Assembly: GCF_024448955.1 (NCBI RefSeq)
Contig: NZ_JAMOIH010000001.1
Coordinates: 124,001 to 188,000 of the forward strand
DNA from: Stutzerimonas stutzeri
Lineage (GTDB): Bacteria; Pseudomonadota; Gammaproteobacteria; Pseudomonadales; Pseudomonadaceae
Reading direction: 5' to 3'
Length of the DNA stretch: 64,000 nt
Shown piece by piece: positions 1 through 5,717 of this stretch (within the stretch, counting starts at the first letter, position 1; each line of letters begins with the position of its first letter). The notes beneath the pieces are model-generated. The model worked only from the letters and a program-made list of their open reading frames with translations. It was not told where the DNA came from and did not search any database. The position numbers and the translations under genes are program-made.

Positions 1-2162
1 AAGCCATACAGGCGCGCCGTCGCGGTCGCGCGGTCATCGTCAGTCACCAGACACCGCCCTTCGCGCCCGCCGGGCTCTATGACGAGCTGCGCGACGTGCA
101 TGCGCTGATCCACGAATACCAGCAGCTCGACGAAGGCGCGGTGCGTGAAAACACGGCCGAACGTATTCGTCGGTTGGCCTTGCAAAGCAAGCTGCTGGAA
201 GACCTTGGCTGGGACGAAGCGCGCATGCGCGCCAATACCGGAGACTTCCTGCTGGCGTTGCATGATTACCTGCACGAGATGGCCCAGGCGAACCTGCCGC
301 TCGGCCTGCACACCTTCGGCGAGCCTGCATCCGCCGAACACCGTCTGGCCACCGTGCTGCAACAGCTGGGCGAGCCCTACCTGCGTGCGCTGGAGCTGAC
401 CGACGACGAGCCGATGGCCGAGGATTTCGCCGGGCTACAGGCCAGCCTTCCCTACCGCACGCTGCAGCGTTATTTGCGCGACGGTGAAAGCCTTGACTCG
501 ATTACCGATACCGAACTGCGCGAGCAGATCGAACGCGCACGCGTGTTGGACGCCCGGCTGACCGACACGGGGGAAATGGAAGCGCTGCTGACCGGTCTTG
601 CCGGCGGCTTCGTCGCACCCGGCCCCGGCGGCGACCCGGTGCGCAATCCGGACGTGCCAAGCGGTCGCAACCTCTACGCCTTCGAGGCCGACAAGTTGCC
701 GACCCGAGCGGCCTATGAGGCAGGCGGCAAGGCGCTGGAGCAACTGCTCGCGAGCTACCGTGATGAGCACGAAGGCGCATTGCCGACGAAGCTCGCCTTC
801 AGCCTATGGTCATCCGAAGCCATGCGCCACCTTGGCATCCTCGAAAGCCAGGTCCTGCACGCACTGGGCGTGCGCCCGGTATGGGATGAGGGAGGACGGA
901 TTCGTACCCTGGAAATCATCCCGGCAGCAGAACTTGGCAGAGCACGCATCGATGTCGTGGTCCAGGTCACCAGCGTCTACCGCGATCAGTTCGACGGCTT
1001 CATGCGGCAATTGGCCGATGTGATGGAGCGGCTCGCCGTGCTGGATGAGCCGGGCAATACGTTGGCCAGCAACAGCCGACGGCTGGCCCAGCGGCTACAG
1101 GATCAAGGAGTCGATGCCGATCGCGCCGAGCGCTTGTCGCACTTGCGTCTGTTCGGTAACGAGCCCGGCGATTATGGCACCGGTGTTTCCCAGCTGACGA
1201 TGGACTCGACACGCTGGGAGAACGATTCGGCCCTCGCCGAGCAGTTCCTCTCGCGGTTGCAATATGGCTACGGCACCGGCAGCTGGGGAGAAAAGATCGA
1301 AGGCCAGAACCTGTTCGCCGAGCAGCTCAAGGGCGTTCAGGCTGCGATCATGGCCCGCTCCAGCGAGCTCAACGGCGTGCTGTCGACCGACCATCCATTC
1401 GAGTTTCTGGGGGGGCTTTCCCTGGCGGTCCGCCATCTCGACGGTGCCAGTCCATCACTCTACATATCGGACCTACGCAAGGCCGAGCCCCGCACGACGG
1501 GCGCGGCGAGCTATCTTGCCAGGGAACTGCGCAGCCGCTACCTGAACCCGCAATGGATCAGCGCGATGCAGCAGGAAGGCTACGCCGGCACGCTAGAGGT
1601 GTTGAACGTCGCCAACAACCTCTGGGGCTGGCAAGCCGCCGATCGCAGCATGGTTCGCGCCGACCAATGGCAGGCCCTGCATGACACCTTCGTAATGGAT
1701 CAGCGCGAGCTCGGCCTCGATCAATGGTTCGAGGCGCACAACCCCACGGCCCAGGCCCAGCTGATCGAACGCCTGGCCGAAGCGATCCGCAAGGGCTACT
1801 GGGATGCCTCCGATCAAACCCGCCGCGAACTGGCCGAACGTTGGCAGGCGCTCACTACCGAACATGGCGCCGATGCCGGCGAGCCGATCACCCGAGACTT
1901 CATCGAACCGATGGCCGCCGGCTACGGCCTCGCGCCAGAAGCCGCCCCAACTGCCGCAACGCCCGCTTCTTCAAGCAACGCGGGCGCGGGCGAGACGGTG
2001 CGCGGCCAGGTGATGCAGGAAGTGGCTGGGCAACCGAACGAAGCGCCGAGCCCATGGCGGCTTCTGCTCGGCATCGCCGCGTTGGCGTCGTGCCTGGTAC
2101 TTGGCGCCCTACTCCAAGCGCTCGCCAACCATCGCGTCGAGCCGGTTTTAAACCCTCAATGA
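1..2162 (+). CDS. CobN-like chelatase subunit, 3' part, with C-terminal membrane anchor (partial)
   Basis: The frame is open from the first base (codons in frame from position 3), so the gene starts outside the window; the GTG at 96 is internal. About 719 residues are visible. They match the C-terminal half of the CobN/BchH large chelatase subunit: the stretch NLYAFEADKLPTRAAYEAG, then VTSVYRDQFDGFMRQL, then GYGTGSWGE. Family members insert Co or Mg into tetrapyrroles with ATPase partners, but no cobalamin gene is next to it. Unlike cytosolic CobN, it ends in a low-complexity Ala/Ser linker and one hydrophobic helix (about nt 2054-2120, LLLGIAALASCLVLGALL), so it is probably membrane tethered. 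An ExbB-like gene follows after 10 bp. This matches what I recall of the Zur-regulated PA1922-PA1925 cluster of P. aeruginosa. The role is probably in metal or metallophore handling rather than B12 synthesis; that is inference. Confidence 0.85.
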   Translation, partial: AIQARRRGRAVIVSHQTPPFAPAGLYDELRDVHALIHEYQQLDEGAVRENTAERIRRLALQSKLLEDLGWDEARMRANTGDFLLALHDYLHEMAQANLPLGLHTFGEPASAEHRLATVLQQLGEPYLRALELTDDEPMAEDFAGLQASLPYRTLQRYLRDGESLDSITDTELREQIERARVLDARLTDTGEMEALLTGLAGGFVAPGPGGDPVRNPDVPSGRNLYAFEADKLPTRAAYEAGGKALEQLLASYRDEHEGALPTKLAFSLWSSEAMRHLGILESQVLHALGVRPVWDEGGRIRTLEIIPAAELGRARIDVVVQVTSVYRDQFDGFMRQLADVMERLAVLDEPGNTLASNSRRLAQRLQDQGVDADRAERLSHLRLFGNEPGDYGTGVSQLTMDSTRWENDSALAEQFLSRLQYGYGTGSWGEKIEGQNLFAEQLKGVQAAIMARSSELNGVLSTDHPFEFLGGLSLAVRHLDGASPSLYISDLRKAEPRTTGAASYLARELRSRYLNPQWISAMQQEGYAGTLEVLNVANNLWGWQAADRSMVRADQWQALHDTFVMDQRELGLDQWFEAHNPTAQAQLIERLAEAIRKGYWDASDQTRRELAERWQALTTEHGADAGEPITRDFIEPMAAGYGLAPEAAPTAATPASSSNAGAGETVRGQVMQEVAGQPNEAPSPWRLLLGIAALASCLVLGALLQALANHRVEPVLNPQ

Positions 2163-2172
2163 ACCGAAATCC

Positions 2173-2652
2173 ATGAACGCACTTGAAACCAGTCTCTACG
2201 AACTGACACGTATTTTTCTCGTACCCGTCCTGCTATTGATCCTGGCCGCGCTGGCCTATGCCTTTCTGGCATTGGGCAGCTTCGCCATGGAGGCCTGGCA
2301 ACGCCGTAACGGCCGTTACCGCTCCGTCCTCGCGGCGCACCAAGCGGCAAACGGTGGCACTAGCGATGACCTCGAACTCTGGATCATGCAACGCCTGGAA
2401 TGGCTGCGCGTGACCTCGCGGAGCGCGCCGATGCTTGGGCTGGTCGCGACCATGATCCCTATGGGCCCAGCCCTGCTGGCATTGACCCAGAGCGATGCAA
2501 AAGGCATCGGCGAGAACCTGGTGGTCGCCTTCTCCTCGGTGATCCTTGCGCTCATCGCAGCGAGCATCACCTTCTTCGTTCTCACCGTTCGGCGCCGCTG
2601 GCTGTTGCAGGAGCTGCGGGTAATCGAACGCGCCGGGGTACAGCACCGATGA
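2173..2652 (+). CDS. MotA/TolQ/ExbB-type proton channel protein
   Basis: A 159-residue membrane protein with three hydrophobic segments: about 14-37, 85-105 and 116-140. The last two contain the family pattern (GLVATMIPMGPALLAL, then NLVVAFSSVILALIAASITF), comparable to TolQ's GLFGTVWGIM and ALIATAIGLFAAI in this window. ExbB/TolQ/MotA proteins form pentameric inner-membrane channels that use ion flow to move a partner. The gene sits 10 bp after the CobN-like gene and overlaps the next gene by 4 bp, so the three are co-transcribed and probably form one complex. It is shorter than ExbB or TolQ (about 230-240 residues). It starts at the first ATG that does not overlap the upstream gene; no strong ribosome site is visible. 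Confidence 0.8.
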   Translation: MNALETSLYELTRIFLVPVLLLILAALAYAFLALGSFAMEAWQRRNGRYRSVLAAHQAANGGTSDDLELWIMQRLEWLRVTSRSAPMLGLVATMIPMGPALLALTQSDAKGIGENLVVAFSSVILALIAASITFFVLTVRRRWLLQELRVIERAGVQHR

Positions 2653-2972
2653 GATTTCTCGACCATGACGAGGACGATGACCCGCTGCTCTCGGTCGTCA
2701 ACCTGATCGACCTGTTCCTGGTGGTGATCGGCATTCTGCTCATCGTCATCGTGCAGAACCCGCTCAATCCATTCAGCCAGGAGAAGATTGTGGTTATCGA
2801 AAATCCGGGCGACGCGAACATGCGCATGCTGATCAAGGACGGCCAGGAGCTGAAGCAATATGAGTCGAATGGGGAAATCGGCGAGGGCCAGGGCGCCAAG
2901 GCTGGAATCACCTATCGCCTGAACGACGGAAGGATGATTTATGTGCCCGAGGAGAATGCATTGGTTAAGTGA
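2649..2972 (+). CDS. DUF2149 protein, ExbD/TolR-like single-pass partner
   Basis: 107 residues. An acidic N-terminus (LDHDEDDDP) is followed by one transmembrane helix (about 17-36, NLIDLFLVVIGILLIVI), then a soluble domain of about 65 residues ending in LNDGRMIYVPEENALVK. The Asp at residue 21 near the start of the helix matches the position and setting of Asp21 in TolR encoded at 21742-22194 (PYIDVMLVLLVIF). That is the proton-carrying residue of ExbD/TolR proteins. The ATG overlaps the ExbB-like stop codon (ATGA), showing translational coupling. DUF2149 is known to occur beside CobN-like and MotA/ExbB-like genes; its function is not established. The ExbD analogy is inferred from the motif and context. 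Confidence 0.75.
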   Translation: MRFLDHDEDDDPLLSVVNLIDLFLVVIGILLIVIVQNPLNPFSQEKIVVIENPGDANMRMLIKDGQELKQYESNGEIGEGQGAKAGITYRLNDGRMIYVPEENALVK

Positions 2973-3112: not shown

Positions 3113-3125
3113 GTTATATTATAAC
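3113..3125 (+). promoter_or_regulatory. Predicted Zur (zinc uptake regulator) box
   Basis: GTTATATTATAAC is a perfect 13-bp palindrome centred on T3119. It matches the core of the gammaproteobacterial Zur operator (GTTATANTATAAC). It lies 35 bp before the ATG of the DUF1624 gene at 3161 and 140 bp after the end of the DUF2149 gene, so it most likely represses the acyltransferase/porin pair when zinc is sufficient. The match is seen directly; regulation is inference. Confidence 0.75.
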
Positions 3126-3160: not shown

Positions 3161-4360
3161 ATGACTAACGCCGCCGCCACGATGCCCGCAGCCGGCACGC
3201 TTTCATCCCTTCATGCCAAGACGCAGGTACGCACGCGGATGCTTGCGATCGATGCATTGCGCGGGCTGGTCATGCTGTTCATGCTCGTCGACCACGTGCG
3301 GGAGACCTTTTTCCTGCACGTTCAGGTAGGCGACCCCATGGATCCGGTCAACACGCCACCTGAGCTGTTCTTCACGCGTATCAGCAGCATGGTCTGCGCA
3401 CCGGTCTTTGTATTCCTGACCGGTCTTTCCGCATGGTTGTACGGGCAATCCCACAGCCGCAGCGAAGTGTCGACGTTCCTGCTCAAGCGGGGCGTATTTC
3501 TCGTGTTCCTCGAACTGACCCTGGTGAACTTCGCCTGGAACGCGACCTTCGTACCGCCGACCCTGTGGTTGCAGGTCATCTGGGCAATCGGCTTGAGCAT
3601 GATCGTACTGTCCGCACTTATCCACATGCCGCGTGCGGCGCTGGCGGTGCTGGGCCTGGTGATCGTAGCCGGCCACAACCTGCTCGATGGCATCGTGCTC
3701 ACAGCGGATTCGCCATTTTTCGAGATCTGGTCGATCCTGCACCAGCGTTCCTTTATCGAAATCACCGAGCACACGCGTGCACGGACCACTTACCCCATCC
3801 TGCCCTGGATCGGTCTCATCGCGCTTGGCTACTGCGCCGGTCCCTGGTTTGCCCGCGATGCCGATCCGGCGCAGCGTGCCCGCCGCCTGTTGATGTGGGG
3901 TATCGGTTTGCTCGCGGGTTTCGTCCTGATCCGCTACCTGAACGTTTATGGCGACAAGCCCTGGAGCGCCATGGAAAACGGCGTGCGCACCTTCATGAGC
4001 TTCATGTCGCTTACCAAATACCCGCCTTCCCTGATGTTCCTGATGCCAACCATCGGCGTCGGCTTTCTGCTGCTCGCCTGGTTTCAGCAACTCGAAGGGC
4101 GTCCCGTGCTGAAGGTGCTTTCGCTGTATGGCGGCGCGCCGATGTTCTTCTACGTCCTGCACCTGCTGGTACTCAAGGCGCTTTACCTGATCGCTGTGCA
4201 GATCTGGGGCCTGAATCAAGGCAACTACTACGGCTTCGATAGCCTCGCCGGTATCTGGCTATGGGCTGTGATGCTGTCGGCAGCACTTTATTTTCCGACC
4301 CGCTGGTTCGCGCAACTCAAGCAGCGCCGTCGCGATATCGCCTGGCTGAAGTACTTCTAA
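3161..4360 (+). CDS. DUF1624 / heparan-alpha-glucosaminide N-acetyltransferase-like membrane protein
   Basis: 399 residues, mostly hydrophobic, with about ten predicted transmembrane segments. The signature RMLAIDALRGLVMLFMLVDH near the N-terminus is typical of the DUF1624/HGSNAT family, which moves acyl groups across membranes. Further features are the conserved 'FFTRISSMVCAPVFVFLTG' helix and the 'PILPWIGLIALGY' loop. The bacterial substrate is unknown. The ATG at 3161 is preferred to an in-frame TTG at 3128 because TTG lies next to the Zur-like box. An OprD-family porin follows 7 bp later, so they form an operon. The pairing with a porin and a Zur-type operator suggests a surface or solute modification linked to zinc starvation; this is inference. 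Confidence 0.8.
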   Translation: MTNAAATMPAAGTLSSLHAKTQVRTRMLAIDALRGLVMLFMLVDHVRETFFLHVQVGDPMDPVNTPPELFFTRISSMVCAPVFVFLTGLSAWLYGQSHSRSEVSTFLLKRGVFLVFLELTLVNFAWNATFVPPTLWLQVIWAIGLSMIVLSALIHMPRAALAVLGLVIVAGHNLLDGIVLTADSPFFEIWSILHQRSFIEITEHTRARTTYPILPWIGLIALGYCAGPWFARDADPAQRARRLLMWGIGLLAGFVLIRYLNVYGDKPWSAMENGVRTFMSFMSLTKYPPSLMFLMPTIGVGFLLLAWFQQLEGRPVLKVLSLYGGAPMFFYVLHLLVLKALYLIAVQIWGLNQGNYYGFDSLAGIWLWAVMLSAALYFPTRWFAQLKQRRRDIAWLKYF

Positions 4361-4367
4361 GACCTCG

Positions 4368-5717
4368 ATGATGAACAGACAATTCGGCTGTTGGATGCAA
4401 GGACTGTCGGTCGCCTGCCTGCCACTGATGGCGTGTGCAGGAGCACAGGAACAGGCAACGGGCTTCGTTGAGGACAGCTCATGGAACCTGCTAAACCGTA
4501 CCGTCTACGACCGGCGTGATTACCGCCACGGTGGGCTCAACGGGGCCGCGCGCAATGCAGCTAAACCGCGCGGCGAGCGCAGTGACCTGGCGGAGGAATG
4601 GGGCTACGGGCTGATGGGCAGCTACGCCTCTGGGTTCACCCAAGGCACGGTCGGCTTCGGCCTCGATGCCCACGCCTATCTGGGGGTAAAGCTGGACAGC
4701 GGTGGGGGTCGCGCTGGAAAAGCTCGCCTGCTTTCGGTGGATGACGAGGGGCATCCCAAGGATGACTATGGGCGCGCTGGTGCAGCGGCGAAGCTGCGTC
4801 TGTCATCCACAGTGCTGAAATACGGCGAGCAGCGGGTGAAGACGCCCGTCTTCGGTTCGTCCGACAGCCGCCTATTGCCCGAAACCGCAACAGGCTGGTC
4901 GGTGACCAGCCAGGAATGGAGTGACCTGACCTTCAACGGCGGTCATTTCACCGAAAGTGCCGACCGCAATGCCAGCAGCCACGAGCGTGGGTTCGTCGTG
5001 AACTACTCCAACGGGAGACAGGGCGACTCGTTCGACTTCCTGGGCGGCAGCTATGACGGCATGGAGCGCCTCGACCTGGTCCTTTACAGCGCACAATACG
5101 ACGAAACCTGGCGGCAGCATTACCTGGGCGGTGTGTACGCATGGCCGATCGATGACGAACAGGCGTTGTCCTTTAACCTGAATCTCTACCGCACACAGGA
5201 CACCGGCGAAGCACGCTCGGGCGCTATCGACAACACGACCTGGAGCCTGATGAGTACTTACTTGCACGGTGCCCATCGCTTTTCGTTGGGCTACCAGAAG
5301 GTGCATGGAGATACGCCGTTCGATTACGTCACCCGCGGTGCCATCTACCTCACTAACGCGGTGGCGCTGTCTGACTTCAACGGGCCGAATGAAGCCTCAT
5401 GGCAACTACGCTATGACCTGGCGATGGCCGCATACGGCATCCCCGGCTTGAGTTTCAGCGCAGCATATATTCGCGGCAGTGGCATCGACGGTAGCGATGT
5501 GGACCCCAGCGGTGGCTATGCCTATTTGGGCTATGGCCGTAACGGACGGCACTGGGAGCGTGACCTGGAAGCCCGTTACGTCGTACAAAACGGGGCCGCT
5601 CAAGGGATGACCTTCAGCGCCCGTTATGCAGTGCATCGGGGCAACACCGATCAGGCGGAATTGGACGCCGACCAGATTCGCTTGGCGGTCGAGTATCCAA
5701 TCCAAGGAACGTTCTAG
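4368..5717 (+). CDS. OprD-family outer-membrane porin
   Basis: 449 residues with a signal peptide of about 26 residues (cleavage near CAGA-QEQ). The mature start 'GFVEDSSWNLLNRTVYDRRDY' and the 'GYASGFTQGTVGFGLDAHAYLGVKLD' type segment are characteristic of OprD porins, as are 'DDYGRAGAAAKLRLS', 'LSDFNGPNEASWQLRYDL' and the C-terminal 'RLAVEYPI' strand. OprD members form 18-strand channels for small carboxylates, amino acids or peptides. It lies 7 bp after the DUF1624 gene, downstream of the predicted Zur box. A second ATG three bases later (4371) is equally possible. The substrate cannot be told from sequence; it is clearly distinct from the OprD at 31326. Confidence 0.85.
   Translation: MMNRQFGCWMQGLSVACLPLMACAGAQEQATGFVEDSSWNLLNRTVYDRRDYRHGGLNGAARNAAKPRGERSDLAEEWGYGLMGSYASGFTQGTVGFGLDAHAYLGVKLDSGGGRAGKARLLSVDDEGHPKDDYGRAGAAAKLRLSSTVLKYGEQRVKTPVFGSSDSRLLPETATGWSVTSQEWSDLTFNGGHFTESADRNASSHERGFVVNYSNGRQGDSFDFLGGSYDGMERLDLVLYSAQYDETWRQHYLGGVYAWPIDDEQALSFNLNLYRTQDTGEARSGAIDNTTWSLMSTYLHGAHRFSLGYQKVHGDTPFDYVTRGAIYLTNAVALSDFNGPNEASWQLRYDLAMAAYGIPGLSFSAAYIRGSGIDGSDVDPSGGYAYLGYGRNGRHWERDLEARYVVQNGAAQGMTFSARYAVHRGNTDQAELDADQIRLAVEYPIQGTF

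Follow-up and report, generated by a model that had tools for sequence, protein, structure and literature searches.

What does a relative of the cobaltochelatase subunit CobN do when it seems to be exported, anchored in the inner membrane, and encoded beside a stator-type channel? This question is raised by the beginning of a 64,000-nucleotide stretch of Stutzerimonas stutzeri DNA (assembly GCF_024448955.1, contig NZ_JAMOIH010000001.1, positions 124,001 to 188,000 of the forward strand; hereafter the window). An earlier reading of the letters and their open reading frames (the sequence-only reading) had proposed an ion-driven membrane machine built around a chelatase-like protein. The answer preferred here, with a chance just short of even, is an HmuS-like machine for zinc salvage under Zur control: a periplasmic de-chelatase, perhaps stator-driven, that would strip zinc from a tetrapyrrole.

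The window opens inside the CobN-like gene, whose start lies 1,726 bases before it. Positions upstream are given in the coordinates of locus L002 (window position = L002 position minus 9000). The central features are as follows.

L002:7275-11162 (window -1725 to 2162), + strand: CobN-like gene, 1,295 amino acids, with its ATG at L002:7275 (window -1725); the window holds residues 577-1295 and the stop codon at 2160-2162
1392-1403, + strand: H1040..E1043 of LSTDHPFEFLGG, aligned with His-1209/Glu-1212 of HmuS
1998-2015, + strand: linker motif V-x-G-Q-V-M before the anchor, conserved in kin
2061-2117, + strand: C-terminal transmembrane anchor by hydropathy, residues ~1263-1281
2173-2652, + strand: ExbB/TolQ/MotA-fold stator-type subunit, 159 amino acids; PF01618, 27.5 bits (cut-off 22.9)
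2649-2972, + strand: DUF2149 protein, 107 amino acids; PF09919, 98.9 bits

The 10-bp gap between the CobN-like and ExbB-like genes and the 4-bp ATGA overlap between the ExbB-like and DUF2149 genes are as the sequence-only reading had described them. The CobN-like protein matches PF02514 with 999 bits and is the only such match in the genome (4.35 Mb; completeness 99.99% by tool estimate). The 80 best of its 378 relatives, kin of the window by choice, were compared with it as Zur-type rows. Since one of them, L116 (1,096 amino acids), was below the length limit, the linker, charge, and motif counts refer to 79 kin plus the window (80 rows); the active-site and signal counts include four more rows from a survey of 194 genomes of the window's order (84 rows, 81 distinct). 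The canonical CobN set has 39 rows representing 31 distinct sequences.

The N-terminus of the CobN-like protein, MPSWIRIGAALIALAGWGAAAFA, is a Sec-type signal by sequence. Under a lenient rule, a signal-like start was found in 81 of 82 Zur-type rows and in none of the 39 canonical rows. N-terminal hydropathy alone was a poor discriminator (at least 1.6 in 76 of 77 kin and in 14 of 30 canonical proteins; at least 2.2 in 57 versus 0). At the other end, the linker and the hydrophobic helix that the sequence-only reading had noticed are real, and absence of the helix from homologues, which it had named as refuting, was put to the test. A hydrophobic stretch within the last 60 residues (window-19 hydropathy of at least 1.0) is present in all 79 readable kin tails (63 of them at 1.6) and in none of 30 canonical CobN tails, where the highest value was 0.48; these controls are the loci of the best-scoring PF02514 matches in the order survey, with flanks of ~1.5 kb. 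The mean net charge is +2.6 after the anchor helix versus -0.9 before it, being higher after the helix in 76 of 80 rows and lower in none. The linker motif V.G[QR]x[LMVI] was found in 68 of 80 Zur-type and 5 of 5 marine-type rows, in contrast to 0 of 12 canonical/BchH-like and 0 of 3 HmuS-like rows. Thus, the CobN-like protein is almost certainly exported and anchored in the inner membrane, as judged from these sequence traits. Given the Sec signal and the C-terminal anchor, its body should be periplasmic, with a short tail probably in the cytoplasm, and the machine should work at the periplasmic face of the membrane.

Among solved structures, the best match by sequence is HmuS (PDB 9d26, 436.8 bits), and M. 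tuberculosis CobN comes next (378.5 bits). In the accessible part of the HmuS paper, the enzyme strips iron from heme, the H538A change abolishes the removal, H1209 lies opposite H538, and E1212 lies behind H1209 (PMC12583661). These residues, together with E577 and D1208, have their counterparts here: H537, E576, D1039, H1040, and E1043 correspond to HmuS H538, E577, D1208, H1209, and E1212. H537 and E576 were found in all 84 Zur-type rows (HmuS H538, in HFG(T/A)HG, and E577), while H1040, E1043, and the neck residue H260 each occur in 80 of 84 Zur-type rows versus none of the 39 canonical rows. The sequence LSTDHPFEFLGG is near the HmuS motif LSLDHxxEFMGG without matching it exactly. It is somewhat probable, judging from the residues, that the CobN-like protein is a catalytic de-chelatase. 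A test on the head Met79-Gly80 revealed no conserved head Met column; Met-Gly within residues 31-160 occurs in 10 of 84 rows. Met-Gly is likewise absent from the first 330 residues of the three HmuS-like rows, and the stretch aligned with HmuS does not include Met79. The idea that loss of Met79 signals a redox-inert metal was dropped because these HmuS-like rows, from the same order, are without Met-Gly too.

Is the pair behind the CobN-like gene a stator, and does it belong to the chelatase? The AlphaFold2 model of the ExbB-like protein is of high confidence (pLDDT 94.9, pTM 0.84), and 48 of the 50 Foldseek matches listed for it belong to ExbB, TolQ, or flagellar stators, the best E value being 0.012. 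Its profile gave a single chance match against PDB sequences; the support came from the fold search. The DUF2149 protein has one transmembrane helix, and its Asp21 (window 2709-2711) is invariant in 33 rows. Its C-terminal part is modelled as beta strands at low confidence (pLDDT 63, pTM 0.31), and it has no match among PDB sequences at E 10.

The sequence-only reading had also named as refuting a lack of joint conservation of the three genes. It was found that the ExbB-like and DUF2149 genes adjoin the CobN-like gene on the same strand in 78 of 80 kin loci, the other two lying at contig ends. A receptor is upstream in 78 of 80 as well (70 resembling that of the window, 8 of a longer type by Pfam); the remaining two start with the CobN gene itself. 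Four loci (L066, L068, L070, and L083) have the order exbB-DUF2149-cobN with a divergent receptor. In the order survey, 28 of 194 genomes encode DUF2149, and a PF02514 gene lies within ~2 kb at 26 of 29 places (25 genomes). The three exceptions are G067, a 4.8-kb contig with the receptor present; G161, an orphan DUF2149 in a genome with no CobN match; and G109, below the Pfam cut-off. Since the stator pair stays beside the chelatase even where the receptor type or the gene order differs, the chelatase is its putative client; whether the stator acts on the chelatase is put at even chances. An orphan DUF2149 gene lies at L078:8004-8315; its genome gave no match to PF02514, and no neighbouring ExbB-like gene was seen.

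The metal is addressed by the upstream region, which adds the following features.

L002:3137-4663, divergent: CobW-type GTPase, PF02492, which I take to be COG0523
L002:4895-4907: Zur-box palindrome GTTATGATATAAC, before rpmE2-receptor-cobN-exbB-DUF2149
L002:4956-5213: rpmE2 (type B L31), first gene of the operon; NF002462, 125 bits
L002:5312 (likely ATG) to 7273 (stop): TonB-dependent receptor, upstream of the CobN-like gene
Window 3113-3125, no strand: perfect Zur-box-like palindrome GTTATATTATAAC, before the next operon

The signal peptide, the receptor, rpmE2, one Zur box, and the CobW-type GTPase, mostly upstream of the window, go beyond the sequence-only reading. Judging by spacing, rpmE2, the receptor gene, cobN, exbB, and the DUF2149 gene are probably co-transcribed. 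The perfect pattern GTTATRNNATAAC occurs at only two places in the genome, before the CobN-like operon and before the next operon. Shuffled sequences gave 0.01 perfect matches per 64 kb, which scales to ~0.7 strand-matches per genome versus 4 seen. A Fur-family gene lies beside the znuCB and znuA genes and is, by its place, probably zur. Among the kin, sites with at most one mismatch are concentrated 1.7-2.8 kb before cobN: 44 in 81 kb versus 20 in the other 1,381 kb, or 0.54 versus 0.014 per kb (~37-fold), with 1 versus 14 for the reversed-pattern control. Perfect sites number 20 upstream versus 5 elsewhere, and 41 of the 74 kin loci with enough sequence have an upstream site. In the order survey, sites upstream of the receptor were found in 4 of 4 Zur-type, 0 of 5 marine-type, and 0 of 6 GRHS loci, and no site was found anywhere in 12 canonical/BchH-like loci. 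One-mismatch palindromic boxes also precede another TonB-dependent receptor gene (L003:148-2190) and a gene for a ZrgA-type zinc-uptake protein (L004:1854-2423).

Published data on P. aeruginosa, in the accessible parts of the sources, point the same way. In a znuA mutant, PA1921-PA1925 rose 15- to 147-fold (PA1922-1925, 45- to 147-fold), and their role was left to be determined there, with the guess that PA1922/PA1924 energise the receptor (PMC4542158). Zur binds the promoter of PA1922 and does so also when no zinc is added (PMC8531726). Zinc-depleted cells had more PA1922, PA1923, and PA1925, the p-values lying between 0.038 and 0.29 (PMC11761036). Zur control of PA1922 was said to seem unique to P. 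aeruginosa, following a 150-bp search (PMC10393844). Here the box stands before rpmE2, ~400 bp ahead of the receptor gene, and the boxes of the kin speak against such uniqueness. Thus, the operon very probably responds to zinc starvation under predicted Zur control. Zinc itself as the metal, suggested by the regulation, is about as probable as not.

The mechanism under the preferred reading may be outlined in five steps. Zinc starvation would lift Zur repression of rpmE2-receptor-cobN-exbB-DUF2149, as the boxes and the P. aeruginosa data strongly suggest. The TonB-dependent receptor of the outer membrane would then supply the periplasm with a metal-tetrapyrrole or a metal chelate of a similar sort; a tetrapyrrole as the carrier has roughly a half chance. 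Judging from the conserved residues, the anchored CobN-like protein would hold the complex between His537 and His1040, and the ring would be protonated and the metal would leave, in a reversal of the CobN/ChlH reaction, as HmuS does on heme; the regulation makes Zn(II) the most likely metal. A ring of the ExbB-like protein, with DUF2149 in the place of ExbD, could let the proton-motive force work the anchored chelatase, so that the stator would substitute for the AAA+ ATPase of CobNST/ChlHID. Finally, the freed zinc may pass to ZnuABC. What has stood of the ion-driven machine of the sequence-only reading is an anchored chelatase-like protein that has an ExbB/TolQ-fold protein and DUF2149 as conserved partners, in a setting of zinc limitation; the ion-driven action on the chelatase and the removal of metal stay conditional, suggested by HmuS homology and gene coupling.

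Several findings weigh against this reading. The Gly-Arg of HmuS His254-Gly-Arg is lost (the residue after H260 is M or L in 81 of 84 rows), HmuS Gln1198 and Trp1202 are changed in this protein, and the domain IV stretch is short, with a median of 64 residues and 1 Met, where HmuS has a methionine-rich insertion. No HmuT was found in the operon, to which its search was confined and in which cobN and exbB are 10 bp apart. Because of the changed pocket residues, the short insert, and the lack of HmuT in the operon, the ligand may differ from that of HmuS. The second His is also present in 2 of 3 BchH-like rows. In the tree, the Zur-type and marine-type rows are grouped with a support of 100, apart from the HmuS-like, GRHS, BchH-like, and canonical CobN rows, so the Zur-type clade is not joined to the HmuS-like rows; the Zur-type label alone has a support of 30, and the program, a quick method run on 59 rows including 27 of 79 kin rows, warns of long branches and uneven composition. 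As for the stator, a comparison of DUF2149 with ExbD gave no support: hhalign returned 1.6%, from shallow profiles (Neff 2.0 and 2.5; seven ExbD rows), and the best Foldseek E value was 0.34, from the pLDDT-63 model, so that only the label "ExbD-position" is kept. As for zinc, the pattern with at most one mismatch has 8 matches per strand genome-wide versus 27 for the backward control; since the control outnumbers it, weight is given to the perfect sites and their places alone. At the threshold used, 33 of 74 kin loci have no Zur site, and L071, one of the three HmuS-like loci, has a one-mismatch site before its receptor gene. As for the tetrapyrrole, none of the nine identified neighbour-gene clusters, of 15 listed, makes or handles one; they comprise CobW-type proteins (12 of 80 loci), Fur-family proteins (6), receptors, ABC, LysR, SDR, Usp, and DUF3526, and two of the remaining six clusters are probably antisense frames. 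In the HmuS-like rows, the domain IV stretch is 246 residues long with only 2 Met.

A further difficulty for the preferred reading is that the ExbB-like and DUF2149 proteins could instead energise the TonB-dependent receptor; the CobN-like protein would then be a linker akin to TonB, or it would carry metal in the periplasm without catalysis. The presence of the receptor upstream in nearly all kin loci, in one run with the other genes, would suit this, and a guess of this kind is published for PA1922/PA1924 and for HmuR/HmuU/HmuV in the accessible parts of the papers (PMC4542158, PMC12583661). However, the genome already has four ExbD matches, the catalytic His and Glu are conserved, and the stator genes keep with CobN despite the changed gene order in the four loci named above and the changed receptor class in eight. 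I regard this explanation as unlikely, if well above negligible. Even less can be said for a role in B12 synthesis, which the NCBIfam model NF004644 implies by naming the protein cobaltochelatase CobN (2,025 bits, cut-off 1,248) and which has a published counterpart in PA1923, given as cobN2 in a P. aeruginosa pathway table (PMC7857532). The protein is apparently exported, and its active-site His and Glu differ from those of CobN. CbiC/CobH (PF02570) and CobT (TIGR01651), the cobalamin genes searched for, had no match genome-wide (the search did not extend to CobS or other B12 genes), in line with the sequence-only reading that no cobalamin gene is near, and the ChlI/ChlD-hybrid model TIGR02442 gave only 20-28-bit pieces versus a cut-off of 779. 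With CobT and CbiC/CobH not found, the protein is hardly a B12 cobaltochelatase despite the NCBI model; the chance is minimal.

Cobalt can substitute for zinc in some enzymes, and corrinoids give up their ring cobalt only with difficulty. The first point counts for, and the second against, a salvage route in which cobalt taken from imported corrinoids replaces zinc. CobN homology and the raised cellular cobalt of the znuA mutant, as given in the accessible part of PMC4542158, agree with it, while Zur control indicates zinc and the receptor scores 422 bits with the CirA model versus at most 229 bits with B12-receptor models, all below their cut-offs, leaving the receptor class open. I find this route improbable. 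About equally small, and no larger, is the chance of a heme de-chelatase for iron that is merely under Zur. HmuS is the closest solved structure and shares the bis-His and the neck His, in contrast to the missing HGR motif, Trp1202, and long insert and to the Zur boxes in front (the Zur pattern only was searched). Very improbable, finally, is a periplasmic insertase loading zinc into a tetrapyrrole or another carrier. The class I fold is the fold of insertases, while the operon is expected to be on at zinc shortage, the bis-His is as in a de-chelatase, and no carrier gene is among the nine identified of the 15 listed neighbour clusters.

The next operon, behind the second Zur box, is a putative zinc-regulated porin operon with two genes.

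3161-4360, + strand: HGSNAT-like membrane acyltransferase, PF07786, 52.1 bits; first gene behind the box
4368-5717, + strand: OprD-family porin, PF03573, 470 bits; second gene

Of the 80 kin loci, only L101 shares this pair at the same place. The named locus nearest to the window is that of Stutzerimonas stutzeri SD25545, with 94% identity. A cluster of like genes occurs in L110, L111, L124, L151, L161, and L176; its L110 member is a Fur-family gene by Pfam, consistent with zur linkage. L175, a kin locus with 56% identity, comes from a metagenome-assembled genome titled cyanobacterium Kaiparowitsia implicata and may reflect transfer or a misbinned contig.

Related clades were also encountered. 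L065-L068 and L070 encode the marine-type anchored CobN, with DD..Q for DH..E, no neck His, and no Zur box before the receptor gene; L065 is from the window's own genus. L071, L072, and L077, from the window's own order, are HmuS-like: they have the motifs HGR and LSLDH/ISLDH, a gene for a many-helix protein takes the place of HmuT, and L072 matches HmuS 9d26 with 1,082 bits. L081, L082, and L093-L096 form a separate clade (GRHS) of ~1,450 amino acids with xxGRHS and N/DDxFD motifs. The C-terminal helix was found in 5 of these 6 and an ExbB-like gene in 4 of 6, and no Zur box lies at the receptor gene; L093 has no anchor, and a many-helix protein is encoded behind it. An "hmu" label for the six was rejected, as the motifs point to the GRHS clade, which possibly serves a third metal or substrate.

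With the present reading, the PA1922-1925 zinc operon gains a concrete, testable mechanism, the NCBIfam name "cobaltochelatase subunit CobN" would be corrected for this family, and metallated tetrapyrroles are suggested as a bacterial zinc source. It also raises the question of what powers HmuS-type de-chelatases, which have the same ExbB/DUF2149 pair. If true, it would make the chelatase a stator client of a new kind and give heme piracy a counterpart for zinc. In its widest form, a proton-driven ExbB-type stator would replace, via the chelatase's own anchor, the AAA+ motor of a class I (de)chelatase with which zinc-starved Alpha-, Beta-, and Gammaproteobacteria would draw zinc from tetrapyrroles in their environment; this full proposal is doubtful. 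Among the open-licence papers listed, none connects PA1923 with HmuS or puts forward a chelatase driven by a stator, as judged by title, abstract start, or term counts.

How does the machine compare with known systems? With CobN (CobNST) and ChlH/BchH (Mg chelatase), it has in common the class I chelatase fold and the superfamily His, H537 here. These proteins differ in being cytosolic and unanchored and in having AAA+ ATPase partners, as described in the accessible part of PMC7689651, and CobN has D..Q in most rows where the present protein has H..E. With ExbBD, TolQR, and MotAB, the stator fold of the ExbB-like subunit is shared; DUF2149 has one transmembrane helix and an invariant Asp, with no similarity to ExbD detected by profile or predicted fold, and the client here is apparently a chelatase.

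The precedents for the whole arrangement are hmuSTUV of Bacteroidota and PA1922-1925 of P. aeruginosa. The hmuYRSTUV system (HmuS, PDB 9d26) likewise has an exported, anchored CobN-like protein, a receptor, the ExbB-like HmuU, and the DUF2149 protein HmuV, and the five active-site residues of HmuS and its neck H254 have counterparts here. It differs in HmuY, HmuT, the long domain IV insert, and the Gly-Arg after the neck His, and its setting is iron versus Zur here. In the accessible parts of the sources, P. gingivalis HmuS is probably periplasmic and membrane-anchored, with HmuV described as without homology to known families (PMC13227078), and the hmu operon with DUF2149 is among iron-responsive genes (PMC10434189). 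The PAO1 table adds the methyltransferase PA1921, whereas rpmE2 heads the operon here. The likeness to PA1922-PA1925, judged by gene content and by description in the accessible parts of the papers, lies in a receptor, a CobN-like protein, an ExbB/ExbD-type protein, and DUF2149 encoded in one zinc-repressed operon (PMC4542158, PMC9431628).

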